This document shows positions 1 to 23,434 of a stretch of 24,307 nt of DNA, piece after piece. The notes under the pieces are model-generated. The model was not told where the DNA came from. It saw only the letters and a list, made by a program, of their open reading frames with translations, and made no database searches. Position 1 is the stretch's first letter. Every line of letters begins with the position of its first letter. The DNA comes from a virus, in the IMG/VR virus record IMGVR_UViG_3300009507_000122, positions 1-24,307 of that record; one strand, given 5' to 3'. A program made the translations under genes and the position numbers.

Positions 1-626
1 GGATTTGAGCTGTAACTGACAGTAGCCCACACATTATCAAAGCCCATATCAAAATCGTCGTATGTATTGGCAATGTGATTGGGCTCCTGTCTATGTACAT
101 TTTTAAGCCCACGTTCTATGTGATCTAATCTACAGCGTGGGTGCGGACGAAATACAATCGGACGCTGTGTGTATTTACGTATTTCGTCATATGTTTCTAG
201 GAACCATGTACTCATGCGTGGCATGTTTTGCCACTGTAAACTCTTATCGTGTTGTCCGCATATTAGAATAAAATCGCCGTTGGATCTCCAAGGCTTACAA
301 ACCAGTCCCAGGCTAGCAGCCCTAGACCTATCATTGTCTTGCTCACCAAAGTAAGCATCTCTGTTGATTCCATTTAATCCTACCTTCCATGTTGTTCCAC
401 GTTTGATACCGCCTACTTCAAGAACTATAGTAGGCTTTTTGTTTTCCCAGATAGTTTTGTTTCTAGCCATGCGGCCGTTGAAAAGCACACTCCAAATACA
501 ATCAACGTCGGCAGTGTTATCATTATAAACAACAGTATGCCCATTATCCACAAGGCTATTTGCAAAAGCATCAAACACCGGTCTGCTATTAAGTGCGCCA
601 TAATCCGTCCATAAACTAAATTTCAT
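1..626 (-). CDS. Capsule-synthesis-like GT-B family protein, paralogue 4 (partial, runs off left edge)
   Basis: I translated this reading frame by hand. It is open for 208 codons from an ATG at 626 to the window edge, and begins MKFSLWTDYGALNSRPVFDA. It carries the landmarks of the three related proteins further right: the phrase IRKYTQRPIVFRPHPRCR (about residues 158-175), with the R-x-H-P signature, and near the edge FDNVWATVSYSSNP, which matches the acceptor-domain start (NAWAVVGFNSNAL) of the protein at 5226-6158. The R-x-H-P plus later N/S-S-x-x-x-E-x-x-x-G-x-P layout is known from capsule polysaccharide synthesis proteins and Kdo/glycerophosphate transferases. The C-terminal third lies outside the window. 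The start overlaps the end of the upstream glycosyltransferase by 11 nt, implying translational coupling. Function is inferred: transfer of a sugar or sugar-phosphate during glycan assembly. Confidence 0.75.
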   Translation of the reverse strand, partial: MKFSLWTDYGALNSRPVFDAFANSLVDNGHTVVYNDNTADVDCIWSVLFNGRMARNKTIWENKKPTIVLEVGGIKRGTTWKVGLNGINRDAYFGEQDNDRSRAASLGLVCKPWRSNGDFILICGQHDKSLQWQNMPRMSTWFLETYDEIRKYTQRPIVFRPHPRCRLDHIERGLKNVHRQEPNHIANTYDDFDMGFDNVWATVSYSSN

Positions 627-1494
627 TCCAATATGCTTCTTTTCGATGAGGCATGACATCCTTTCTCTTTGATGACCCTGCGAATTTTCGATCACCTTTC
701 ATATGATCCATCCATTTACCTAACCTGCTGTTTATAAGCGGATGCCCGCCGCCGCCGGACTTTGCTAAATTATTTACTGCAATTTCAGTAGTGTAATCTA
801 ATGCATTTGGAAAATTTACTTTCATATCAAATAATATACTACCAAACACATAGCTGTCGTGCCATTCTTCTAGTGTAAAGATACCGTTGTCTGCATCTTC
901 GTACATACGTTCAAATTCTTTAAGGAATTCATGACACACTGGATGATTTAAATTTAACCCATAGAATCCACACTCGGGCCAGTTTTTTACAACCAGTTTA
1001 CCTTCTGGTCCAGGATTAACGCCCTTGCCTCTGCCGACGTATGTAATCCAACTAGTGTCAGGCAGTAGTTCTGCAAAGTCTTCATAACTCCAATCACTAT
1101 GTACAAATGTATCTGCATCCATCCACACACACCAGTCCTTAGAACGTGTTACAGCGTCGAACACAGCATAAACTTTATTAGCAAATCGTATAGCATGCCA
1201 TTTAAATTCTTTGTGATGATCCTTTGGACGGCGTTCTGGCCACGGACATTTACCATTAGCTTTAGGATCATCCTTCCAACGTTCTTTAAATGCATTAAGT
1301 TTAGGAAGTGTTTCTACTGCATCTAAAATTGTAATGCGTGTCGGGTCAGGATTTTTTGGTTTACAATTTTCAGCATACACAATTAATTCAATACGCTTGT
1401 CTACACGTCGAGCAAAACTTTCTAAAAACTTGTCGCCGTATGTGGACATTCCTTCGGGATGAAATGTCGTTACTACTGTTATTTTTTTGCCCAT
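616..1494 (-). CDS. GT-A fold glycosyltransferase with DxD motif
   Basis: A 292-residue protein with a beta-strand start (KKITVVTTF) and a metal/nucleotide-binding DxD in CVWMDADTFV (residues 126-128), the hallmark of GT-A glycosyltransferases that use nucleotide sugars. The later GFYGLNLNHP and WHDSYVFG segments resemble the acceptor region of that fold. An in-frame ATG exists at 1512, but the ATG at 1494 (MGKKITVV) is preferred: it begins the conserved strand and has GGAGG 11 nt upstream. It overlaps the previous gene's end by 16 nt. There is no signal peptide or membrane segment, so it should act in the cytoplasm. Donor and acceptor cannot be told from sequence. It sits between two capsule-like family paralogues, which argues for a joint job in building one glycan. 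Confidence 0.8.
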   Translation of the reverse strand: MGKKITVVTTFHPEGMSTYGDKFLESFARRVDKRIELIVYAENCKPKNPDPTRITILDAVETLPKLNAFKERWKDDPKANGKCPWPERRPKDHHKEFKWHAIRFANKVYAVFDAVTRSKDWCVWMDADTFVHSDWSYEDFAELLPDTSWITYVGRGKGVNPGPEGKLVVKNWPECGFYGLNLNHPVCHEFLKEFERMYEDADNGIFTLEEWHDSYVFGSILFDMKVNFPNALDYTTEIAVNNLAKSGGGGHPLINSRLGKWMDHMKGDRKFAGSSKRKDVMPHRKEAYWNEI

Positions 1495-2408
1495 TGTTTC
1501 AGGTGCCTCCATGCTGTTCCGTCTTTAAGTTCGTCTAATGTCCAATGCATTTGTGCCATTTTATGTATCCACGGTTCTCTGTCAAACTGTTGTAAATTTT
1601 CTATTTGTGTTATTAAATTTGATACCTTTGCTGCTTGACTTCTGGCAGGATCTAATACTATGGTAGGTATTCCTTCGATAGCTGCTGCAACTGCCGGACT
1701 ACTATTATAATTTATTACACAATATGCATTAGCAAAATCTTCTAATATATTAGATGAATGACTAACTATTACATTTTCTAATCTATATCTTGCTAATGAT
1801 CTTTTGTGCTCTAATATTTTTTTATCGCCTGGGTGAAATCTAACTATAATTCGCCTATCAGTATATTTCTTAATTTGTTGTATAGTTTTAACTAGCCAAG
1901 GCATTAACGGTTGACTATCCATACTCCAGCCGCCATCGCGCTGACAGCAAACTACAATATTGTTACCGCCAGTTTTATATGGCTTTAATGAAATCCCTAA
2001 ACGATTACTAATTAAATTCCAACGTTCTGGATTAGGATTGTCATTACAATACTCGCCTGTATTAGGAAAAATTCCATCATAGCTATAACGTAAAAACTTA
2101 TTAGAGTTTCCTTTGTCAGCATATAAAAATAAATTACTGTCAACAATAATACTGCGTTTTTTGTCGCGTTGCTGTTTTTCAAAAACGTTTTTACGCAAAT
2201 TTAAATGCAAGCTATTCTTACTTCCAGGATGCACAAATCCTTGCACAACAGCAACATCACAATCGACAGGATCATAATCTGTTACTATTGTCCCTTTGTC
2301 GCCACACTGCCAAACACCCTCGATAAAATTTACAATAATTTTAGGTTTTTCTGTGTTAGTATTACCAGGCGGTATTCCCATTAAGTATGAAGCAACAGTA
2401 ACAGTCAT
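1479..2408 (-). CDS. Capsule-synthesis-like GT-B family protein, paralogue 3
   Basis: A 309-residue member of the four-copy family in this operon. It shares with the protein at 5226-6158 the segments YCNDNPNPERWN, then IQQIKKYTDRRIIVRFHP (R-x-H-P), then FANAYCVINYNSSPAVAAAIEGIPTIVLDP, and a C-terminal W-x-x-x-(M/L)-x-x-x-(H/Q)-W-x-x-(D/E)-E motif. The R-x-H-P strand followed by an S-S-x-A-x-x-A-x-x-x-G-x-P loop is the pattern of capsule polysaccharide (KpsS/KpsC-type) and glycerophosphotransferase GT-B domains, where these parts bind the nucleotide-sugar donor. The family link is by pattern only. It begins in an ATGA overlap with the preceding gene. No membrane segments are seen. Role inferred: glycosyl or sugar-phosphate transferase for a surface or virion glycan. 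Confidence 0.7.
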   Translation of the reverse strand: MTVTVASYLMGIPPGNTNTEKPKIIVNFIEGVWQCGDKGTIVTDYDPVDCDVAVVQGFVHPGSKNSLHLNLRKNVFEKQQRDKKRSIIVDSNLFLYADKGNSNKFLRYSYDGIFPNTGEYCNDNPNPERWNLISNRLGISLKPYKTGGNNIVVCCQRDGGWSMDSQPLMPWLVKTIQQIKKYTDRRIIVRFHPGDKKILEHKRSLARYRLENVIVSHSSNILEDFANAYCVINYNSSPAVAAAIEGIPTIVLDPARSQAAKVSNLITQIENLQQFDREPWIHKMAQMHWTLDELKDGTAWRHLKQWAKK

Positions 2409-3208
2409 GATATATTATACTTCTTTATTAGTTCTATAGCAGTGCCATCTGTCATTTCTTGAGGACGATACTGGCAGTATCCTAACCAATGCTGCCATTT
2501 TTTTATTTTATCTTTATCAGCATACATAGGAGTTTCTATTAATGTTAAGTCCTTTTCGCAAAATTCGTCTGCTGCATTAGGAGCAAGAGTAAAACATGGT
2601 ATTCCATATCCTATTGCTTCGGTAGCTGCAATACTATTGTAAGTAACAACTGCAAATATATCATTGTCTAATTGTTTGTATATACTTCCGTTGCCGACTC
2701 GATCTCGTCTATTAACTTTATCTCTTACAATAACAGGACGATCGGTATGGTTTGCTAATGTTTCTAATGTGCTATTAACAAATTCATCTCTATTAATTCC
2801 ATAAAATTTACAAGGTTTTTCACTAGGAGTAACAACTAGTATACTACGTCCATCCTTTTTCCAACCAGGAAAGTTTAAATATTTTTTATTTGTAGATATT
2901 AGTTTAAATCTATCATCGGGCATATTCCAATTAATATCTGAATGTTGCATACCGCTTAAAACCATACGATGCCAGTCTTTGCGTTTTTGCATATTTCCTA
3001 TATATCCAGTATCAATATAGTAATAAGGTCGATTTTGTTTTTCACATAAGGTTACAATTTTTCTTCCAGCCATGCCTCTAAATATAACCGGCATATCAAT
3101 AGGATAATTATTGAGATCTTTCCAGTTAGGAACAAACTCAGCACCTATTGATTCAGCAAAGGGTGTTATAATAGCGTCTGTATTGTCTAGCACTAAAAAT
3201 TTAGCCAT
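2405..3208 (-). CDS. Capsule-synthesis-like GT-B family protein, paralogue 2 (variant donor motif)
   Basis: A 267-residue, shorter member of the same family. It keeps the C-terminal half well: VTYNSIAATEAIGYGIPCFTLAP, then LTLIETPMY and WQHWLGYCQYRPQEMTDGTA, nearly the same phrase as in the protein at 5226-6158 (WLYNLGYCQWREDEIARGDP). It lacks the central R-x-H-P: after HTDRPVIVR the expected H-P is replaced by D-K. In related GT-B enzymes that region contributes to catalysis or phosphate binding, so this copy may have changed chemistry, be a regulatory partner, or use another residue. The ATG sits inside the end of the preceding glycosyltransferase gene (8-nt overlap, ATGGCTAA), with AGGA upstream as ribosome site. 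Cytoplasmic, with no signal peptide. Confidence 0.68.
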   Translation of the reverse strand: MAKFLVLDNTDAIITPFAESIGAEFVPNWKDLNNYPIDMPVIFRGMAGRKIVTLCEKQNRPYYYIDTGYIGNMQKRKDWHRMVLSGMQHSDINWNMPDDRFKLISTNKKYLNFPGWKKDGRSILVVTPSEKPCKFYGINRDEFVNSTLETLANHTDRPVIVRDKVNRRDRVGNGSIYKQLDNDIFAVVTYNSIAATEAIGYGIPCFTLAPNAADEFCEKDLTLIETPMYADKDKIKKWQHWLGYCQYRPQEMTDGTAIELIKKYNIS

Positions 3209-3884
3209 TCATCATGTCCTGTAGTTCTTGTTTCCATTCTTGATTATATTCACAGTTCCTATAGTTTTCAAACCACGGTCCACCTTCTGTGTAGTGTAAT
3301 AGTTTTGGTGCACCATCCTCTGGCTGCTTGTAGTGTCCTACTAACCAATTCCATTCAGGTGATATTTCGCCAATTAGATCATCATTTTCTAGCCAACTAA
3401 ATCTATGAAAGTATGCTCCGTTAAGTTCTGGTTCATTTACTAAATCTATGTCAAGTCGTTTGTTAGCAGGGTGTCCGCAGTTAATAAGCATCATACTAGA
3501 CCAATTCTTACGTGGATAAACTGTTTGTGTTTGCCCGTCCATCTTAGTGCCTTCTTTAGGTGCATAGTCATGTTGTACACACATCAATGCCTTTGTATCG
3601 TCTGCTTGTGCAAACAACTCTGCAATGTCTGTAGTAAGTAACATGTCACAATCCATAAACACTGCCCATCCGTTAAAGTTAGCAAGTTCAGGAACTAAGA
3701 AGCGAGTAAATGTAAATTCAGTACTAGCAAGTTTATCTGGAGATCTCGAATACCACCCTTGACGTTTAAGATCATTTTGTTTTAACGGAATAACTTGAGC
3801 AGTCGGACTATGCCGTTCGATGCTGTGTTTGCATACTTGATATGCTATATCTTCTCTAGGGTCGTATCCTACAAATACTTTCAT
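3201..3884 (-). CDS. GT-A (GT8-like) glycosyltransferase
   Basis: A 227-residue enzyme. It opens with MKVFVGYDPREDIAYQVCKH, a start typical of a family of small bacterial and phage glycosyltransferases, has the metal-binding DxD as DCD in WAVFMDCDMLL (residues 78-80), an inner segment NWSSMMLINC, and ends with LLHYTEGGPWFENYR, which contains the His-Gly region that closes over the donor in this fold. It should transfer a hexose from a nucleotide sugar in the cytoplasm. It starts in an ATGA overlap with the nucleotidyltransferase-cupin gene and has a purine-rich AGAAGAG upstream, so the two are probably made together. The linkage formed is unknown. Confidence in fold is high, in substrate none. 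Confidence 0.82.
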   Translation of the reverse strand: MKVFVGYDPREDIAYQVCKHSIERHSPTAQVIPLKQNDLKRQGWYSRSPDKLASTEFTFTRFLVPELANFNGWAVFMDCDMLLTTDIAELFAQADDTKALMCVQHDYAPKEGTKMDGQTQTVYPRKNWSSMMLINCGHPANKRLDIDLVNEPELNGAYFHRFSWLENDDLIGEISPEWNWLVGHYKQPEDGAPKLLHYTEGGPWFENYRNCEYNQEWKQELQDMMNG

Positions 3885-4657
3885 GTGTCTCTTCTTTCTA
3901 TATCTTCTTCAACGCACTCACCCCATTGTATTTCTAGTATGTGTGCATTTTCTGTACCACTGTTAGATGCTAGGTGCCAAACTTCCTTGCCAATTTCATA
4001 TGGCATTCCGTGAGGCTTTAATTTTAGTGCTGATACATTTCCGTTCCACTCAGTCTGCATATCAACTACGCCTTCCAGTACCATCCACTGTTCTGAACGT
4101 TTGAAATGTTTTTGGTTGCTTAGTGCTTTGTCTGGATAGATTACAAGTTCTTTTACTTTATAACCTTTCTCAGGTCTGTCATCTAGCACACGCCAGTAAC
4201 CCCAGTCACGTTTAGTCTTTTGTGTTTTCCATTCGTCTAGTATCCAACTACTGCTGTTAGCTTTATTACTTCCGCCAACACCGAAGGCAAACTCGCACCA
4301 ACGATAATCACCGTACACTTCATACTCAGGCGTAGTAGCATCAGTTCTGTCTCCGCCATTAGCAAAGATCATAATGTCATCACCTGTAATCATAGTTGCT
4401 ACTTGACCGATTGCTTTGTTTGCTGTGTTGTCTAAATCGTCAAATCCAATAACCTGATCAACTACTGCTAGTTCTTTGATAATAGCAGCCCGTTCATTAA
4501 ACGGCATAAACGGTCTGCCCTTCTTACGTGTTAACCATTCGTCACTGTTAACTCCAACAACTAACTTATCACCAAGTTCTCGTGCTGCTTTAAAATATTC
4601 AATGTGTCCTGAATGCAGCGGATCAAAGCCGCCAGTTACTAATACTACTTTGTTCAT
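3881..4657 (-). CDS. Fused HxGH nucleotidyltransferase and type II phosphomannose isomerase-like cupin
   Basis: 258 residues in two domains. Residues 1 to about 140 form a cytidylyl/adenylyltransferase-like Rossmann domain: GGFDPLHSGHIEYF carries the H-S-G-H motif (15-18), followed by GVNSDEWLTRKKGR and ER at 55-56, closest in pattern to glycerol-3-phosphate cytidylyltransferases and the HldE/RfaE adenylyltransferase domain. Residues about 149-258 are a cupin like the C-terminal domain of type II mannose-6-phosphate isomerases: RDWGYWRVL, GYKVKELVI, metal ligands Q182, H184, E189 and H228, and the ending EEDIERRD. Classical bifunctional ManC pairs this cupin with an unrelated GT-A guanylyltransferase, so the pairing here is unusual. 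Likely role (inferred): making an activated sugar for the flanking glycosyltransferases. No Shine-Dalgarno is visible, and a TAAATA box lies 5 nt before the ATG. Confidence 0.8.
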   Translation of the reverse strand: MNKVVLVTGGFDPLHSGHIEYFKAARELGDKLVVGVNSDEWLTRKKGRPFMPFNERAAIIKELAVVDQVIGFDDLDNTANKAIGQVATMITGDDIMIFANGGDRTDATTPEYEVYGDYRWCEFAFGVGGSNKANSSSWILDEWKTQKTKRDWGYWRVLDDRPEKGYKVKELVIYPDKALSNQKHFKRSEQWMVLEGVVDMQTEWNGNVSALKLKPHGMPYEIGKEVWHLASNSGTENAHILEIQWGECVEEDIERRDT

Positions 4658-4662
4658 ATAGA

Positions 4663-4669
4663 TATTTAT
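4663..4669 (-). promoter_or_regulatory. Late-type -10 box (ATAAATA) 5 nt before the start of the fused nucleotidyltransferase
   Basis: On the minus strand ATAAATA ends 5 nt before the ATG at 4657. No ribosome-binding sequence lies between the previous stop (4682) and this start. If used as a T4-type late promoter it would give an essentially leaderless mRNA. The lone sequence match in AT-rich DNA is weak evidence by itself. Confidence 0.4.
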
Positions 4670-4681
4670 GTGCGTAGTTTA

Positions 4682-5242
4682 TTATAAAAACTTTATTTGG
4701 TATGTTGTATGTTTCTTTCCAGAGTATACTTTATCTACAATTTCAAATTCGCAATCTTGATCTTTTAATGTACTATTTCGTATATCTATAATAATTTTAC
4801 TATTACTAGTTGTATGATTTTTAATCAACTCTGCATATGTATTCAGCGGATAATGAAAGCCGCAACTCATTATACTGTATACCAGATCAAATTTAATATT
4901 ATCATCTAGTTGAATATCAGTAGCATCAACAAATGTATATTTTAAATTTCTTTTATTAAATGACTCTTTTAAAGTATCTAGTTTGTTATAAAATTTAAAA
5001 GTTTCTACAGTTCCATATTCAATATCTCTTTCTTCATCTTTTGTATTGTCAAAATCTCCATCTAACAAAAATAAATTAGAATTATATTTTTTTTGAAACA
5101 TTTCTGATTCAAAGGCTAGGCCACATCCGATATCTAAAATTGACATCGGAGTACTATTAATATATCTATCTAATATATTGAACATTTTAACTTTACTATT
5201 ATAATGCTCTAGAGTAGTCCATTTTTTAAACCATTCTGTCAT
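4682..5242 (-). CDS. Class I SAM-dependent methyltransferase
   Basis: A 186-residue protein with the SAM-binding motif I MSILDIGCGLAFES (about residues 33-46), an acidic end to strand 2 (LFLLDGDF), a motif III-like FVDATDIQL, and a motif IV FDLVYSIMSCGFHYPL that would contact the target. This is the small-molecule or sugar methyltransferase type. There is no DNA-target-recognition domain, so DNA methylation is unlikely. It starts 17 nt inside the end of the preceding gene, with AAAAGGA ahead of the ATG. The gene is visibly richer in A and T than the structural genes, hinting at acquisition. In this operon, methylation of a sugar residue (for example capping a glycan) is the best guess. The substrate cannot be seen. 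Confidence 0.78.
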   Translation of the reverse strand: MTEWFKKWTTLEHYNSKVKMFNILDRYINSTPMSILDIGCGLAFESEMFQKKYNSNLFLLDGDFDNTKDEERDIEYGTVETFKFYNKLDTLKESFNKRNLKYTFVDATDIQLDDNIKFDLVYSIMSCGFHYPLNTYAELIKNHTTSNSKIIIDIRNSTLKDQDCEFEIVDKVYSGKKHTTYQIKFL

Positions 5243-6158
5243 TTATTTTTCCTTTTAATTTTGATAAATGAAACCAAGGATCTCCTCTTGCAATTTCATC
5301 TTCTCGCCATTGGCAGTAACCTAAATTATAAAGCCATTGATTGCGTTCAAACATTATAGGATTTTCTAAATCTTTTAAATCTTTATTGCTACAATCCCAC
5401 GCCATTGAACTAGCACACATACTAAATGTAGGAACACCTTCACATATGCTCTCTGTTAATGCATTTGAATTAAATCCTACTACTGCCCAAGCATTACTAA
5501 AATCAGCATACAATCCGTCACCGCCTTCTAATAATGCTGCACCGTGTGTGTTTTTACTAATTTCTAGATTAAACCCTTTAAGTGCTTCTAATTGTCTATC
5601 CTGACGCAATGGATGCATCCGTACACGTATAGGTCTATCTGTGTATTTTTTAATTTGTGTTATAGTATATTCTATAAACTGTTTATAAGATCCGTGTTTG
5701 TCTATAAGTTTTTTTAAACTACTGTCGCCCGGACGTTGTAATACTAGTAATATATAATCGCCGTTTGTACGCCAATCCTTAATTTCTATAGATTGTTCTT
5801 TTTGTATACGAAGCCATCGATCTGAAGGACTATTATCATTACAATAATTGCCATCGTCTTGGTAATAACTTGTCCAACTGTACCTATGATAGGACATAGG
5901 ATTTGGAGGTTGTATCATGTTGCGTCTAAACACAGCACTTTCAACAACTAAAAATGGCTTGTTGCTGTCTAAAATATATTGATAATATTTGTTAAGCCCT
6001 CGACGTTTTTGACCTAAAATATTATTTTGTATAAACACATCAGCAGATTGTATAGTGTCTTGATCCGCCCAAGGAACTATTTTAAAATTAGGCAAATCTG
6101 GCATAGGATGATTCCTATACATTTCTTCAATGCCAATTACTGAACTATATTTGTTCAT
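5226..6158 (-). CDS. Capsule-synthesis-like GT-B family protein, paralogue 1
   Basis: 310 residues and the most complete copy of the family. N-terminal part: ADVFIQNNILGQKRRGLNKYY and KPFLVVESAVFRRN. Middle: SYHRYSWTSYYQDDGNYCNDN then ILLVLQRPGDSS. Donor-binding half: ITQIKKYTDRPIRVRMHPLR (R-x-H-P), DFSNAWAVVGFNSNALTESICEGVPTF, then WLYNLGYCQWREDEIARGDPW. The order (N-terminal partner domain, Q-R-P-G loop, R-x-H-P, N-S-x-A-x-x-E-x-x-x-G-x-P) fits a two-domain GT-B enzyme of the capsule polysaccharide synthesis kind. The assignment is by pattern and unproven. It overlaps the methyltransferase before it by 14 nt and the one after it by 17 nt. No transmembrane segment, so a cytoplasmic transferase is expected. 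Confidence 0.72.
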   Translation of the reverse strand: MNKYSSVIGIEEMYRNHPMPDLPNFKIVPWADQDTIQSADVFIQNNILGQKRRGLNKYYQYILDSNKPFLVVESAVFRRNMIQPPNPMSYHRYSWTSYYQDDGNYCNDNSPSDRWLRIQKEQSIEIKDWRTNGDYILLVLQRPGDSSLKKLIDKHGSYKQFIEYTITQIKKYTDRPIRVRMHPLRQDRQLEALKGFNLEISKNTHGAALLEGGDGLYADFSNAWAVVGFNSNALTESICEGVPTFSMCASSMAWDCSNKDLKDLENPIMFERNQWLYNLGYCQWREDEIARGDPWFHLSKLKGKINDRMV

Positions 6159-6705
6159 TTTGAAAAAGTAAACCTGTACGTTTTAAAAATTGATGCTTTC
6201 TTTTTTTGCCCATAGTAGAGTGTTTGCGCAATTCTACTGTCAAACTTGGATTATATTTAAATCCGTAATTTGACATTGTCTCTATCCAATATTCTTCAGT
6301 ATTACAATTTACGTGATGATATCCAGTGGCGCCTACAGGGGCGTATGTCATTACAAAAACTTTACACGCTTGGAATGATGTCATATAGTTTGGAATATAT
6401 TCTTGATACACATGTTCAACAAACTCTACACTCCATCCAATATCATATTTCTTACCCAAATGATTCAAAGGACCTGTAGTAAAATCATGTATAAGAAATT
6501 TATTTTCGTCATATCGATTGAGTGTATGATCACCGTCGATGCCCACGGCTTCTAAACCAATTTTTTCAGCTAATTGTACCATGCCGCCTGGTCCGCAGCC
6601 TACATCTAGGTATGTCTGTGCATTAAAATAATACTTGAGCCATTTTAATGCGCCTTCGTCTAAGTGTGTTAAACCGTTGTGGCCGCCAAGGTGTTCTTCT
6701 AACAT
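6145..6705 (-). CDS. Class I SAM-dependent methyltransferase
   Basis: 186 residues from the chosen start MLEEHLGGHNGLTHLDEGAL. Motif I is TYLDVGCGPGGMVQLA, strand 2 ends in AVGIDGD, and motif IV is YDIGWSVEFVEHVYQEY, all of the generic small-molecule methyltransferase type. The HLGGHNG...DEG opening is shared by several phage methyltransferases of glycan clusters, to my recollection. An in-frame ATG at 6726 exists, but the ATG at 6705 forms a TAATG junction with the stop of the preceding glycosyltransferase, the same junction used by uvsY, so it is preferred. The target is unknown. The partner genes suggest a sugar or peptide-like glycan component. Confidence 0.78.
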   Translation of the reverse strand: MLEEHLGGHNGLTHLDEGALKWLKYYFNAQTYLDVGCGPGGMVQLAEKIGLEAVGIDGDHTLNRYDENKFLIHDFTTGPLNHLGKKYDIGWSVEFVEHVYQEYIPNYMTSFQACKVFVMTYAPVGATGYHHVNCNTEEYWIETMSNYGFKYNPSLTVELRKHSTMGKKRKHQFLKRTGLLFQNEQI

Positions 6706-7337
6706 TATAAATATTTTCCATACCATCTGAGATATTTTGCTTTTGTTTTTTGTGTTCCTTTTAGTGTTAAGAAAATACTGTCACTACTATTTTTACCGAT
6801 ACACATCCAATCACGCGGTGCAGGTATAAAGTTATATTCTTCACTAAATTTATCAAGTATATTTTGATCTCTTCCCCATTCCCACTCTTCTATATCTTTA
6901 GATTTAATTTCATTAATATAATCTTGTCTAAATCCATTATCACTAAATGCAACCAATCCAGCTAACCATCTATTATCTTTATAAGATTGTAATATATGTT
7001 GTTTAGAAAAAAGAAACTCTATTTCTTCTTGAGAATAAGGCCTTGTACAAATTGTATCTGCGTCTATTGCAACTACTTTTTCTGATTTATTAAATTTGCT
7101 GTCAGCAATTAAAAACCTAACACTTTGTAAATAACTTATTTTTGAAGTATCGTTTGCAAACTTAATAGTTTCTTCGGTAATATCGACATTAGAAATAGTA
7201 TTAGATTTCGTAGGGTTTACTATATGACAATGAAGTCTTAAATTTGGATTATGAGATTTAATACTTTTAAATAAAGGAATTGCCCATGTATCAAAATAAT
7301 GTTGATCCACGCCTACTACTAAATTATAGACTTGCAT
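6705..7337 (-). CDS. GT-A glycosyltransferase, GT8-like
   Basis: 210 residues. Opening strand YNLVVGVDQHYF, then a DxD motif in VVAIDADTICTRPY (residues 92-94) preceded by the SVRFLIADSKF helix usual for GT8-type enzymes, and a late GRDQNIL segment that resembles the D-Q acceptor-side motif of the fold. Cytoplasmic, no signal peptide. It is the first gene of the glycan run and starts 14 nt inside uvsY, so it is translationally linked to a recombination gene. The gene is visibly more AT-rich than uvsY, which suggests the glycan block was joined to uvsY by transfer. Substrate unknown. Confidence 0.78.
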   Translation of the reverse strand: MQVYNLVVGVDQHYFDTWAIPLFKSIKSHNPNLRLHCHIVNPTKSNTISNVDITEETIKFANDTSKISYLQSVRFLIADSKFNKSEKVVAIDADTICTRPYSQEEIEFLFSKQHILQSYKDNRWLAGLVAFSDNGFRQDYINEIKSKDIEEWEWGRDQNILDKFSEEYNFIPAPRDWMCIGKNSSDSIFLTLKGTQKTKAKYLRWYGKYL

Positions 7338-12297: not shown

Positions 12298-12304
12298 TAT
12301 TTAT
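12298..12304 (-). promoter_or_regulatory. Late-type -10 box ATAAATA 4 nt before the 656-residue gene
   Basis: Minus-strand context is ATAAATACAATATGC, with the last A of the box 4 nt before the ATG at 12293. The same TAAATACAATATG string precedes the plus-strand gene at 23099. AGGT lies 14 nt upstream of the ATG, a poor Shine-Dalgarno distance. It is a candidate late promoter giving a leaderless mRNA. Confidence 0.5.
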
Positions 12305-12312
12305 CTACCTAG

Positions 12313-13893
12313 TTAAAAGTTACTGCTTATAAAGATGGGCATAGGTGCTTCGTAATCTTCTATGTCTTCAGCTTGTGTAAATGTACTATATATTCTTGGA
12401 TCCCAATCTTTGAGTACAGCCATCATTCTTAGTGCAAGTAGTGTAGCACTAACTAAGTCATCACTACCGCCGGACTTTGCTTGATAACTACTACCTGTTG
12501 CAACAAACGCTTTAAGCTCACTAATAAGAGTCTTACTTCTAACAGTCATCTTATCATTCTCGATCATAGTTTTAAGTCTACTACATGCTGTAATCTTAGT
12601 GCCATGCGTGGTGTTAAATCCTTTGCGGAACTTTCTTACGTGCCCTTTACGCATAGGTTCACTTACAAATAGTCCTGGAATGTTTTCTTCACCAAAGTCA
12701 TTAATAACAAGTAAACATGCTTCGCCAATGCCATTGTTTTCAACACTCCAATATATACCGTTGGTGTTATTAGTTTCTTGTTCTAAGTATTTGCATATAT
12801 CTGCAAGTACTCTAATTTGTCCAGGGATAGCTGTTTGATTGTGTTGCCACTCTGCTACTTGTTCGTAACTAGGCAGTTCAAACACTTGTATAGCTGCGTT
12901 ATCGCCCCCTGTTCCCATACTAGGGTCAAGTGCTACTGCATACGTATATTGCGCTGTAGGCTTCTTATACCAGCGTGTTTGGCCCATGTTGAGCATAGGA
13001 GACACACCTTCCATTGTAGCAAGTTTTAAACTGTTGATTAGTGTTTCGTCAAATACTAGGAATTCGCAACCGTATTCACGACGGAACTTTTCTTCACCAA
13101 TACGTCCAACTTCTTCTACTTTCCATTCTTCGTCACGATCTGGATGTTCGCTCCAATGTGATATAAAGCTGTGGAAGCCGTTAGAACCTAGCTCTTGTTC
13201 ATTTCCGTGTTCGTCAAACTTATTTTCTGCTTGTTTCCAAATGGTTGCAAAGGTATCTTCATCCGAGTTTGGTGTGCTTGTAATAATAGCTCTACCACCT
13301 GTTGCTAGTGTAGGAGATATTGAAGTCCAAAATTCTTCAGCAATGTTGGGTTGCACAAATGCAAACTCGTCACAGTATAGTAACGAGATACTCATACCAC
13401 GTCCTGTATTGCCTGTTGTTGTTTGTGCTACAATACGTGAACCATTTTCAAATTCAATTGATTGTTTGTTATAACTTGTAACACCTGCACGTATATGATC
13501 AGGGCAACTTTCATACACAAAACGTATGCGTGACATAATCTCTTGTGCACCTGTGTATTTGTGTGCAGCAACTAGAATAGTTTGATCCGGTATAAACATT
13601 GCATACCATGCTAGATAGATACTAGCACATGTAGTCTTGCCTGTTTGTCTAGGCATCATATTAATATTAAAGCGGAAGTTGTGATAACTATGCATTAATC
13701 CTAGCTGATATTCGTAAGGATCATACAACAGTTTACCCTTTACAGGATGCTGAATGTAAGCAAACTTTTTAGCAAAGTACAAGTATCCTTCAACAGGATC
13801 CATACAGGATACTAAGTCTTCAACTTGCTCGTTGGTATATGTTTCTTGTCTGTTTGCCTTCTTTATTAAGACGCCGTCTAATGATGCTGCCAT
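12313..13893 (-). CDS. 17: gp17 terminase large subunit
   Basis: 526 residues; T4 gp17 has 610. ATPase domain: Walker A MPRQTGKTT (about 80-88), Walker B LLYCDEFAFV with D175/E176, and the coupling motif ITSTPN (204-209). Nuclease domain: D323 in ALDPSMGTGGD, E385 in WSVENNG, and D478/D479 in GGSDDLVSATL form the expected acidic metal site. It drives DNA packaging into the prohead and cuts concatemers, working with gp16 and the portal. It starts right after an intrinsic terminator, with only TTTCACTAAATATTAAC between the terminator's T tract and the ATG. There is no Shine-Dalgarno, and a CTAAATA late box lies 5 nt upstream. It ends 20 nt before the next gene. Confidence 0.97.
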   Translation of the reverse strand: MAASLDGVLIKKANRQETYTNEQVEDLVSCMDPVEGYLYFAKKFAYIQHPVKGKLLYDPYEYQLGLMHSYHNFRFNINMMPRQTGKTTCASIYLAWYAMFIPDQTILVAAHKYTGAQEIMSRIRFVYESCPDHIRAGVTSYNKQSIEFENGSRIVAQTTTGNTGRGMSISLLYCDEFAFVQPNIAEEFWTSISPTLATGGRAIITSTPNSDEDTFATIWKQAENKFDEHGNEQELGSNGFHSFISHWSEHPDRDEEWKVEEVGRIGEEKFRREYGCEFLVFDETLINSLKLATMEGVSPMLNMGQTRWYKKPTAQYTYAVALDPSMGTGGDNAAIQVFELPSYEQVAEWQHNQTAIPGQIRVLADICKYLEQETNNTNGIYWSVENNGIGEACLLVINDFGEENIPGLFVSEPMRKGHVRKFRKGFNTTHGTKITACSRLKTMIENDKMTVRSKTLISELKAFVATGSSYQAKSGGSDDLVSATLLALRMMAVLKDWDPRIYSTFTQAEDIEDYEAPMPIFISSNF

Positions 13894-13898
13894 GTTAA

Positions 13899-13905
13899 TA
13901 TTTAG
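13899..13905 (-). promoter_or_regulatory. Late-type -10 box (CTAAATA) 5 nt before gp17
   Basis: Minus-strand CTAAATATTAACATG: the box ends 5 nt before the ATG at 13893 and follows the terminator T tract directly. With no ribosome site in between, transcription from it would start at or near the AUG. Confidence 0.5.
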
Positions 13906-15708: not shown

Positions 15709-16215
15709 TTATTTATCTTTATCCATACCTTTGAGCTTTTCTAAAAGGCTATTTCTATCAGTAACAACATAGCCTGCTCCATTAACAATGTCGCCATCGC
15801 CAGGTCCTTTGCCGTCGTTGTCCTGTTTTTGCTTTTTAAGTTGTAGCTCAACTACTTTTAATTTATTATTAAGTTTGGCTACTTTAGCATCTAAACTAGT
15901 TTTAAGTAATCCGCCTGCGGTTTCAAATACTCTGCCACTATACCGACTTTCTACATTCATACCTAGATCCATTAGATCATCGTATGCTTGCATTGCTTTG
16001 TCAGCAATTTCATTAAGCTCGTCGTCTGCCATTTTGCCCAAGCCTTTTATGGCAGGTAATGCACTAGCAATTTTATCAAACTCTTCTATGTCACGGAATG
16101 TTTCAACTACATTGGCCATTTCATGCTTTGTTTGTTCGGCTTCTTGGAATTCTGCTTGTTTTATAATTTCTTTCGAATCAGGTAAATTTAGTAGGTCTTC
16201 TAATTTTTTAGTCAT
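15709..16215 (-). CDS. 16: gp16 terminase small subunit (likely)
   Basis: 168 residues, almost the same as T4 gp16 (164). It is helical with a long central coiled-coil-like stretch (LNNKLKVVELQLKKQKQDN), and ESRYSGRVFETAGGLLKTSLDAKVAK (about 89-114) is a phrase seen in small terminase proteins of marine T4-like phages. The C-terminal region has a Gly/Asp linker, then LLEKLKGMDKDK. It would form rings that regulate gp17 and choose the DNA substrate. The large subunit follows after two genes rather than directly as in T4. A late box CTAAATA at 16242-16248 and GGAAAG before the ATG give it its own expression signals. Confidence 0.78.
   Translation of the reverse strand: MTKKLEDLLNLPDSKEIIKQAEFQEAEQTKHEMANVVETFRDIEEFDKIASALPAIKGLGKMADDELNEIADKAMQAYDDLMDLGMNVESRYSGRVFETAGGLLKTSLDAKVAKLNNKLKVVELQLKKQKQDNDGKGPGDGDIVNGAGYVVTDRNSLLEKLKGMDKDK
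15710..15716 (-). promoter_or_regulatory. Late-type -10 box for the 185-residue gene, overlapping the gp16 stop
   Basis: Minus-strand AAGATAAATAATACATATAG. The TAA stop of gp16 lies inside the ATAAATA box. The downstream ATG is about 30 nt away, with GGGGAT as ribosome site, so here the leader has normal length. Confidence 0.6.
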
Positions 16216-16241
16216 TTAAACTTTCCATTATATGCTACTAT

Positions 16242-16248
16242 TATTTAG
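16242..16248 (-). promoter_or_regulatory. Late-type -10 box for gp16, overlapping the sulfotransferase stop
   Basis: Minus-strand CTAAATAATAGTAGCATATA. The TAA stop of the sulfotransferase is part of the box. The gp16 ATG follows 26 nt later, with GGAAAG as ribosome site. Confidence 0.6.
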
Positions 16249-16826
16249 CTAAAATTATATCCAAATGTATTAATATCTTTTTCAAATTTAGTTTGTACTA
16301 TTTTCTTAGTGTTATCATTATAATAATCTTTATAACCGTGTGTCCTACTCGATACGTTTATGACTGGTAAGTCTTTATTAATATTAAATTTTTCAGCTAT
16401 TACTTTTATTTCTTCGTTAATATTTTCTAATTTTATAATATAATCGATACCCACTGTCCTGTGGTATTGATCCTTTAACATTGTAGTTTCTATAAAGTAT
16501 TCAAACCCTTTTTCAAAATTATTCAATACCTGCTGATTATATTCTAAACTAAACTTGCCTTTATTTTTGGGATGATTAATTCTGCGCAATGCTCTATCTC
16601 GATTAAAGAAATACCAACTAACACACCAATCCCACGGATTTCTTACTACTGCAAAACTAAAGTCAAATTTTCCGTATTTAGATTCAATAGCATTTAGCGT
16701 GTGGTGTTTTGTAGCTTTTGTTACACAACTATCTGTATTGTCTAGTAACCATCTCTGTATACTGCTGCCGCCTGTTTTAGGAATATGTATAAAGACACTA
16801 TTATAATCTTTAATAATTACTGCCAT
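16245..16826 (-). CDS. Sulfotransferase (Sulfotransfer_2-like)
   Basis: 193 residues. The 5'-phosphosulfate loop is SVFIHIPKTGGSSIQRWL (residues 10-27), and the 3'-phosphate-binding segment is FAVVRNPWDWCVSWYFF (about 58-74), both expected for PAPS-dependent sulfotransferases of the heparan-sulfate type. A C-terminal SSRTHGYKDYY segment is also typical. It would move sulfate from PAPS onto a sugar or protein. Its ATG abuts the gp4 stop (TAAATG), with a weak ribosome site, and its own stop is inside the gp16 late box. The gene is visibly more AT-rich than gp4 or gp16, and it separates packaging genes, so it looks like an inserted cargo gene. The substrate is unknown; the phage or host glycan is possible. 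Confidence 0.85.
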   Translation of the reverse strand: MAVIIKDYNSVFIHIPKTGGSSIQRWLLDNTDSCVTKATKHHTLNAIESKYGKFDFSFAVVRNPWDWCVSWYFFNRDRALRRINHPKNKGKFSLEYNQQVLNNFEKGFEYFIETTMLKDQYHRTVGIDYIIKLENINEEIKVIAEKFNINKDLPVINVSSRTHGYKDYYNDNTKKIVQTKFEKDINTFGYNFS

Positions 16827-17264
16827 TTATCTTTTACGTCCAGTATGAAATATATCGTCTTCAGTTACTATACGGAATATAATTCCTTTTTGTTTGCACC
16901 ATGCTCGTGCGGCTTCCCACTTGGCTTGATTAACCACGTAATGTGCTTGATTGTGTTTGCTATTACCAAGGCGTTCTCGCATTGCTTGATTAGCAGGTTT
17001 AACTTCAATTAGTTCTACACGCTTTTTAGTGCTTTTATCTGCATACGAAATAAAGAAATCAGGCACGTATACAGTTTGTTTACCGGTCAGTGGGTTGCGG
17101 TAAGGTATACGTACAGCCTCACTTGCCCAGTTTTCTATTGCAGGATGTTCGTCGCAGAACTTCATAAACGTAAATTCCCAACCCGAACGGTATGTAGGAA
17201 CTTTATTACCTATGTACTTTTGCGGATTTTTAAGATTAAATTTACCTTGCGCAAATCGACCCAT
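16827..17264 (-). CDS. 4: gp4 head-completion protein, nuclease-like
   Basis: 145 residues; T4 gp4 has 150. MGRFAQGKFNLKNPQKYIGN, then YRSGWEFTFMKFCDEHPAIENWASE, RIPYRNPLTG, VPDFFISY and ELIEVKP make a PD-(D/E)xK-like core: PDF supplies the Asp and E-x-K (IEVKP) the Glu and Lys. These are family landmarks of T4 gp4 and its phage relatives. In T4 it acts in finishing filled heads before tail joining. It starts right behind the 113-residue gene (TGA one base before its ATG), and its stop abuts the sulfotransferase start. Confidence is high. Confidence 0.9.
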   Translation of the reverse strand: MGRFAQGKFNLKNPQKYIGNKVPTYRSGWEFTFMKFCDEHPAIENWASEAVRIPYRNPLTGKQTVYVPDFFISYADKSTKKRVELIEVKPANQAMRERLGNSKHNQAHYVVNQAKWEAARAWCKQKGIIFRIVTEDDIFHTGRKR

Positions 17265-18836: not shown

Positions 18837-18843
18837 TATTTAT
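18837..18843 (-). promoter_or_regulatory. Late-type -10 box ATAAATA 5 nt before the tube-like gene
   Basis: Minus-strand GATAAATATTAGTATG: the box ends 5 nt before the ATG at 18831. It lies just downstream of the gp19 terminator, where a new promoter is expected. AAGGA overlaps the box. Confidence 0.5.
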
Positions 18844-23098: not shown

Positions 23099-23434
23099 AT
23101 GAGACCATTATGCACTTGCGGGCAACGTCCTGCTGCAATAAACTACCGTAAAGAAGGCAAAACTTATTATCGAAAGAAATGCGAACGCTGTTTGCGTAAT
23201 GGTGCTGGACACGGAATACCGTTATGGAAACAACGTGGGTATGAAAAGAAAGATGTTTGCGAAAAATGCGGGTTTAAATCAAAGCATCCTGAACAGTTTA
23301 ATGTGTTTCATATAGATGGAGATCTACAAAACTGTCGACCAAATAATTTAAAAACTATATGTGCTAACTGCCAACGTATAACTCAAAAAGAAGGCATACG
23401 TTGGAAGCAGGGAGACTTAACTCCGGATTTCTGA
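23099..23434 (+). CDS. HNH-like zinc protein (endonuclease family, last His missing)
   Basis: 111 residues and the only plus-strand gene. Cys pairs C5/C7, C28/C31, C54/C57 and C88/C91 suggest two zinc sites. The core NVFHIDGDLQNCRPNNLKTICANCQ (71-92) is the HNH pattern H-x-x-G/D...N...L-x-x-x-C-x-x-C, but the usual His after the last C-x-x-C is Gln (Q92), so nuclease activity is uncertain. I recall similar proteins in marine T4-like phages beside the sheath gene. Free-standing HNH genes are often homing endonucleases. Here it could also be a DNA-binding regulator. It overlaps the dNMP kinase-like gene tail-to-tail by 18 nt, and its promoter region is divergent from that of gp18. Confidence 0.85.
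   Translation: MRPLCTCGQRPAAINYRKEGKTYYRKKCERCLRNGAGHGIPLWKQRGYEKKDVCEKCGFKSKHPEQFNVFHIDGDLQNCRPNNLKTICANCQRITQKEGIRWKQGDLTPDF

Follow-up and report, generated by a model that had tools for sequence, protein, structure and literature searches.

A Sulfotransfer_2-family gene occupies, as a single-gene cassette, a cargo slot between gp4 and gp16 in a T4-superfamily phage

Sulfotransferases are already known from phages, as are hot-spots where cargo lies between T4 core genes. Described viral sulfotransferases include PHROG 3347, the proteins of Roseobacter phage SIO1 (gp5.1), Prochlorococcus phage P-SSM7 and Synechococcus phage ACG-2014f, and those of giant viruses; the role of the phage enzymes has been described as unclear (PMC10580990). 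Cyanophage hot-spots lie near gp5, between gp46 and gp25, between gp16 and gp17, and near psbA (PMC3037559). Pelagimyophage islands are rich in glycosyltransferases, for which a role in changing the host O-chain and averting coinfection was proposed (PMC7029224). The stretch of DNA analysed here (24,307 nucleotides, hereafter the window) is a 24.3-kb piece of a marine T4-superfamily myovirus, with a large terminase nearest to those of PA5oct-like jumbo phages (54%). Its junction between gp4 and gp16 resembles these hot-spots and islands in carrying variable metabolic cargo between conserved structural genes. It differs from them in being usually empty and mostly single-gene, among the matches listed, in the recurrence of sulfotransferases within it, and in the rebuilding of a late promoter at its edge. 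A gp4–gp16 slot with recurrent sulfotransferases was not found in the literature searched, and the reoccupied gp4 slot appears to be new to it.

Table 1. Coordinates of the features discussed, numbered on the window
Feature	Position	Strand	Remarks
gp4 head-completion/head-closure gene, left edge of the slot	16827..17264	-	PHROG 218, E=1e-43; TnsA-like nuclease domain (N)
Sulfotransfer_2-family sulfotransferase ORF (cassette, ATG to TAA)	16245..16826	-	193 aa
HIPKTGGSS codons (residues 14-22), predicted 5'-phosphosulfate-binding loop with Lys17	16761..16787	-	motif
His41 codon, candidate catalytic base	16704..16706	-	kept in at least 90% of 53 homologues
VRNPWDWCVSWY codons (residues 61-72), predicted 3'-phosphate-binding motif with Arg62 and Ser70	16611..16646	-	
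CTAAATA, putative gp16 late-promoter box including the sulfotransferase stop TAA	16242..16248	-	26 nt ahead of the ATG of the gp16-position gene
gp16 leader ATAATAGTAGCATATAATGGAAAG..., right edge common to filled and empty sites	16216..16244	-	conserved
gp16 (small terminase)-position gene, right edge of the slot	15709..16215	-	PHROG 445, E=1e-3, weak; synteny with terL
terL	12313-13893		clear; a few genes past the gp16-position gene
ATAAATA, putative late-promoter box	18837..18843	-	5 nt ahead of the tail-tube-like gene
Glycan-biosynthesis cluster	3..7337	-	homologues flank the sulfotransferase in sister phages
GT8-like gene	3201-3884		glycan cluster
Nucleotidyltransferase-cupin gene	3881-4657		glycan cluster
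Methyltransferase gene	4682-5242		glycan cluster
Four paralogous cluster proteins	3-695, 1479-2408, 2405-3208, 5226-6158	-	mutual identity 25-33%

A preliminary description, made from the sequence alone, had called the gene between gp4 and gp16 a PAPS-type sulfotransferase, and family searches agree. The ORF matches PF03567 (Sulfotransfer_2) in Pfam with 31.1 bits (gathering score 22; E=3.4e-7), an above-threshold match covering most of the domain (positions 4–251 of 252), and PHROG 3347, annotated as galactose-3-O-sulfotransferase (E=3.8e-17). IMG/VR yielded 26 relatives; these and a low dN/dS led us to reject a chance ORF. Using tblastn at 1e-5, no match was obtained among INPHARED phages, and single-sequence and profile searches of PDB sequences gave weak sulfotransferase matches, none of them significant. 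An AlphaFold2 model built on a 53-sequence alignment (pLDDT 94.9, pTM 0.89) predicts a PAPS-binding sulfotransferase fold; an earlier model from 14 close sequences was poor (pLDDT 64) and was discarded. The two best structural matches in VIA-align were heparan sulfate 2-O-sulfotransferase (HS2ST) structures (Z 10.7, rmsd 3.1 Å over 162 residues, and Z 10.6); next in rank were further heparan-sulfate enzymes and cytosolic SULTs. Foldseek was weaker (best PDB E 2.8e-3), yet it also placed sulfotransferases in the top ranks.

The structural matches do not single out a substrate: the SULT1/2 structures, which act on small molecules, score only about 1 Z below HS2ST (Z 8.8–9.8). These scores would suit sulfation of a small molecule or host metabolite (detoxification, a signal or a defence nucleotide), as by cytosolic SULTs, and so would the diversity of enzymes found in the slot, among them a halogenase of a small-molecule-type family. 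We nevertheless consider such a target distinctly unlikely: HS2ST is the better structural match, 47 of 53 homologues match PF03567 and thus belong to Sulfotransfer_2, not Sulfotransfer_1, and a glycan-gene neighbourhood recurs around homologues, as described below.

The PAPS-binding motifs are intact in an alignment of 53 distinct homologues, and the catalytic-type Lys and a candidate for the catalytic His, to which the preliminary description had tied its assignment, are both present. Lys17, in the PKTGG loop, and His41 are each conserved in at least 90% of the homologues, while Arg62 and Ser70, in RNPWDxxVS, are invariant. By position, the Lys17 loop would be the equivalent of PKTASTS in HS2ST. 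Against a two-sequence HS2ST profile, hhalign recovered the 3'-phosphate-binding motif as the sole region, aligning VRNPWDWCVSWY to VIRDPIERLVSYYYF with a probability of 34%. His41 and Arg62 are 21 residues apart, compared with 22 between H142 and R164 in the HS2ST chain sequence; we take H142 to be the catalytic base of HS2ST, with the residue numbering and roles assumed accordingly. The protein is like HS2ST (PDB 3f5f, 4ndz) in its predicted fold, its PKTGG-type 5'-phosphosulfate-binding loop, its RNPxxxxVS-type 3'-phosphate-binding motif and a conserved His ahead of it. It is unlike HS2ST in being a prokaryotic viral protein of 193 aa with about 15% identity, in which no signal peptide or membrane anchor was noted, without a formal prediction. 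With the sulfotransferases of SIO1, P-SSM7 and ACG-2014f it shares enzyme class and structural matches (BFVD).

The order gp4–sulfotransferase is kept in the 26 closest IMG/VR relatives, with gp16 next where the contig reaches it. Slot occupancy was scored in relatives found from gp4 with both flanks readable (n=77 among the matches listed, the best 80). Among these, the junction is empty (30–74 bp) in 66/77, contains one or two sulfotransferases of more than one lineage in 8/77, and contains other cargo (a radical SAM protein, a tryptophan halogenase or a small ORF) in 3/77; the figures describe nearest relatives, some near-copies included, and should not be read as natural frequencies. Each relative is a metagenomic fragment, so a gene missing from it may still be present in the genome. 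The radical SAM protein is found in L069, the halogenase in L106 (3467-4942, PF04820, E=6e-92) and an ORF of 73–77 aa in L007 and L095. Tandem, unlike sulfotransferases fill the slot in L085, L086 and L122–L124, and a distinct one fills it in L094. Sulfotransferases again adjoin gp4 in distant T4-likes, in which gp4 is only 34–44% identical.

Precise empty sites in close relatives confirm the insertion between gp4 and gp16 that had been proposed. In L029, an empty site with gp4 and gp16 proteins 98–99% identical to those of the window, gp4 (...AAAAGATAA) runs straight into ATAATAGTAGCATATAATGGAAAG; in the window, AAAAGATAA and ATAATAGTAGCATATAATGGAAAG are both present and are split by ATG...AGCTAA. 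The edges of the cassette are the edges of the ORF. As first described, the ATG directly follows the gp4 TAA, and the gene lends its own stop (TAA, 16245-16247) to the CTAAATA box of gp16. In the empty slot, the GATAAATA box is formed by the stop of gp4 itself; in filled slots, the box is restored by the stop of the cassette or by the bases after it. We conclude that the sulfotransferase gene forms a one-gene cassette, that the gp4–gp16 junction in which it lies is a cargo slot, and that the gene is cargo and not an autonomous moron (a classical moron has its own promoter and terminator).

Because the slot is empty in 66 of the 77 relatives among the matches listed, the gene is dispensable for building this kind of virion; the reading as an essential head gene was rejected. 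Nor is the gene conserved with the head genes, as a virion-associated modification gene would be. The preliminary description had taken its placement among late genes to favour a target in the virion. The comparison does not support this argument: virions of this kind are made by most relatives in the absence of the gene, and enzymes of unrelated types also enter the slot, so the position points to late expression and not to a target. If a capsid or tail protein were sulfated, on a glycan or a tyrosine, this would be consistent with late co-expression with head and tail genes, and virion proteins could be decorated by phage glycosyltransferases. Given the occupancy of the slot and the location of homologues in glycan clusters, we regard a virion target as unlikely.

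The motif [AC]TAAATA is credible as the T4-type late promoter of this phage, because 8 of its 9 coding-strand copies are found no more than 60 bp upstream of a gene start, a zone that takes in 6.7% of positions. No late box was found within 60 bp upstream of the sulfotransferase gene. The nearest upstream late box for tube2–u17266–gp4–sulfotransferase is that at 18837-18843, with a 5-nt spacing before tube2 that is kept in 33 of 34 distinct relatives. The sulfotransferase would probably be expressed late, by read-through from this promoter ahead of the tail-tube gene, with coupling to gp4 translation probably providing a further route.

Comparison with L004 points to exchange of the ORF by itself. 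The sulfotransferase is 92% identical to that of the window at the DNA level (dS 0.24), whereas the flanks are about 70–72% identical (gp4 dS 2.18, gp16 saturated); similarity goes up at the ATG and down past the common promoter/leader. As judged from these alignments, the sulfotransferase ORF alone was transferred. A single clade for all gp4-slot copies was rejected (p-AU 0.003). When the test was confined to slot copies from the phage group to which the window belongs, a single clade was not rejected (p-AU 0.073), so independent capture within this group is suggested by the tandem unlike copies and the shape of the tree. Outside the gp4 slot, the closest copies in the tree are those of L117, L119 and L120 (SH-aLRT 88 in a quick tree); they belong to glycan clusters and have a late-promoter box of their own. 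A recent acquisition from bacteria was rejected, as even the nearest homologues in bacteria share only about 33% identity and fall outside the window's clade in the tree.

The gene had also been described as more AT-rich than its neighbours. This is correct with respect to gp4 and gp16 (28.7% GC vs 39.5% and 36.3%), with GC below both neighbours in each of the 10 relatives checked. Equal or greater AT-richness is nonetheless seen elsewhere in the window (u17266, 28.7% GC; GT6705, 28.1%; MT4682, 24.8%).

Patchy presence and frequent exchange might also be expected of a functionless passenger, decaying or neutral, gained by recombination. However, dN/dS is well below 1 in all comparisons with the window (0.11–0.28, pairwise against 14 relatives; median of all pairs, 0.20), the motifs are intact in the 53 homologues and the slot has repeatedly been occupied by the same enzyme class; we therefore give a passenger hardly any credence, the lowest among the readings weighed here. 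By these substitution estimates, the sulfotransferase is under purifying selection.

The substrate is best approached through the genomic neighbourhood of the homologues. The window itself encodes, about 9 kb from the sulfotransferase gene, a glycan-biosynthesis cluster of two GT8-like enzymes, a nucleotidyltransferase-cupin, methyltransferases and four paralogous proteins, which gave no Pfam or PHROG family match and, as a profile, no match in the PDB. Of 30 homologous loci located away from the head region, 16 are embedded in, or adjoin, counterparts of the window's glycan genes, often with 60 bp or less between the sulfotransferase and a nucleotidyltransferase; the other 14 have no homologue of these genes in reach. 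In four phages with an empty slot and a sulfotransferase elsewhere on the fragment, the latter is in each case beside this glycan cluster. In addition, L161 (2466-4406) encodes a 647-aa viral fusion of Sulfotransfer_2, Glyco_transf_25 (LPS biosynthesis) and Sulfotransfer_4. Collectively, the glycan-gene neighbourhood, the GT25 fusion and the HS2ST-like predicted fold make a sugar the best-supported acceptor of the putative enzyme. The linkage to glycan genes could alternatively refer to a glycan on the virion.

The same neighbourhood bears on sulfation of a phage DNA base (hypermodified or glycosylated) as an anti-restriction measure. A role of phage sulfotransferases in base-modification systems has been proposed, and PMC10829341, citing Iyer et al. 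2013, mentions base-modifying phage systems with sulfotransferases. Here, the neighbours are of the surface-glycan type, and family searches recognised no base-hypermodification gene within the 24-kb fragment, which is a minor part of the genome. We consider this target very unlikely.

On balance, we judge it somewhat probable that the product of this single-gene late-slot cassette is a PAPS-dependent, catalytically active carbohydrate sulfotransferase acting on a surface or phage-directed glycan. Sulfate would be transferred from host PAPS to a sugar hydroxyl of a glycan made or remodelled by the phage through its glycan cluster, with surface polysaccharide or LPS of the host as the most likely acceptor. 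The phage would likely gain from an altered receptor chemistry, such that competing phages are excluded and progeny are not wasted by re-adsorption; receptor masking or superinfection exclusion is perhaps the purpose. By analogy, a late sulfation step would fit the O-chain/coinfection model proposed for pelagimyophages. More tentatively, it is possible, although we would not assume it, that the gp4-adjacent junction is a dedicated, exchangeable surface-chemistry slot in T4-superfamily marine phages. PAPS sulfotransferases would have captured it several times independently, late sulfation of host glycans would exclude rivals, and the trait would be swapped as single ORFs together with a regenerated late promoter.

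Sulfotransferases are found repeatedly in marine phages, and the genes around the homologues narrow the field of substrates from anything to glycans. Natural pairs with and without the gene, with flanking proteins 98–99% identical, together with reoccupation of the slot, offer a clean comparison, by which it can be tested whether a defined glycan is sulfated and how this affects adsorption and superinfection.

Several smaller observations concern the promoters and the surroundings of the slot. On the minus strand, 4–5 nt separate four late boxes from the ATG that follows: those at 18837-18843 (tail-tube-like gene), 13899-13905 (terL), 12298-12304 (u10323) and 4663-4669 (nucleotidyltransferase gene). 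A spacing of 4–5 nt ahead of u10323 is kept in 9/10 distinct relatives. Given T4-like start-site spacing, these boxes would yield leaderless late mRNAs. The gp16 leader TAAATAATAGTAGCATATAATGGA (16216-16247, minus strand) is identical in at least 39 gp4 relatives among the matches listed, even though synonymous sites of the flanking codons are nearly saturated in many of these relatives; this conservation exceeds the need of a -10 box. A DUF7275 protein is inserted between gp16 and the next gene in L013 (5080-5928), suggesting a second slot one gene beyond the gp4–gp16 slot. In L018 (2323-4224), a subtilase-family protease gene (PF00082) lies between u17266 and gp4. An HNH-endonuclease-like ORF lies on the opposite strand of the window (23099-23434, plus strand), upstream of the tail sheath gene.
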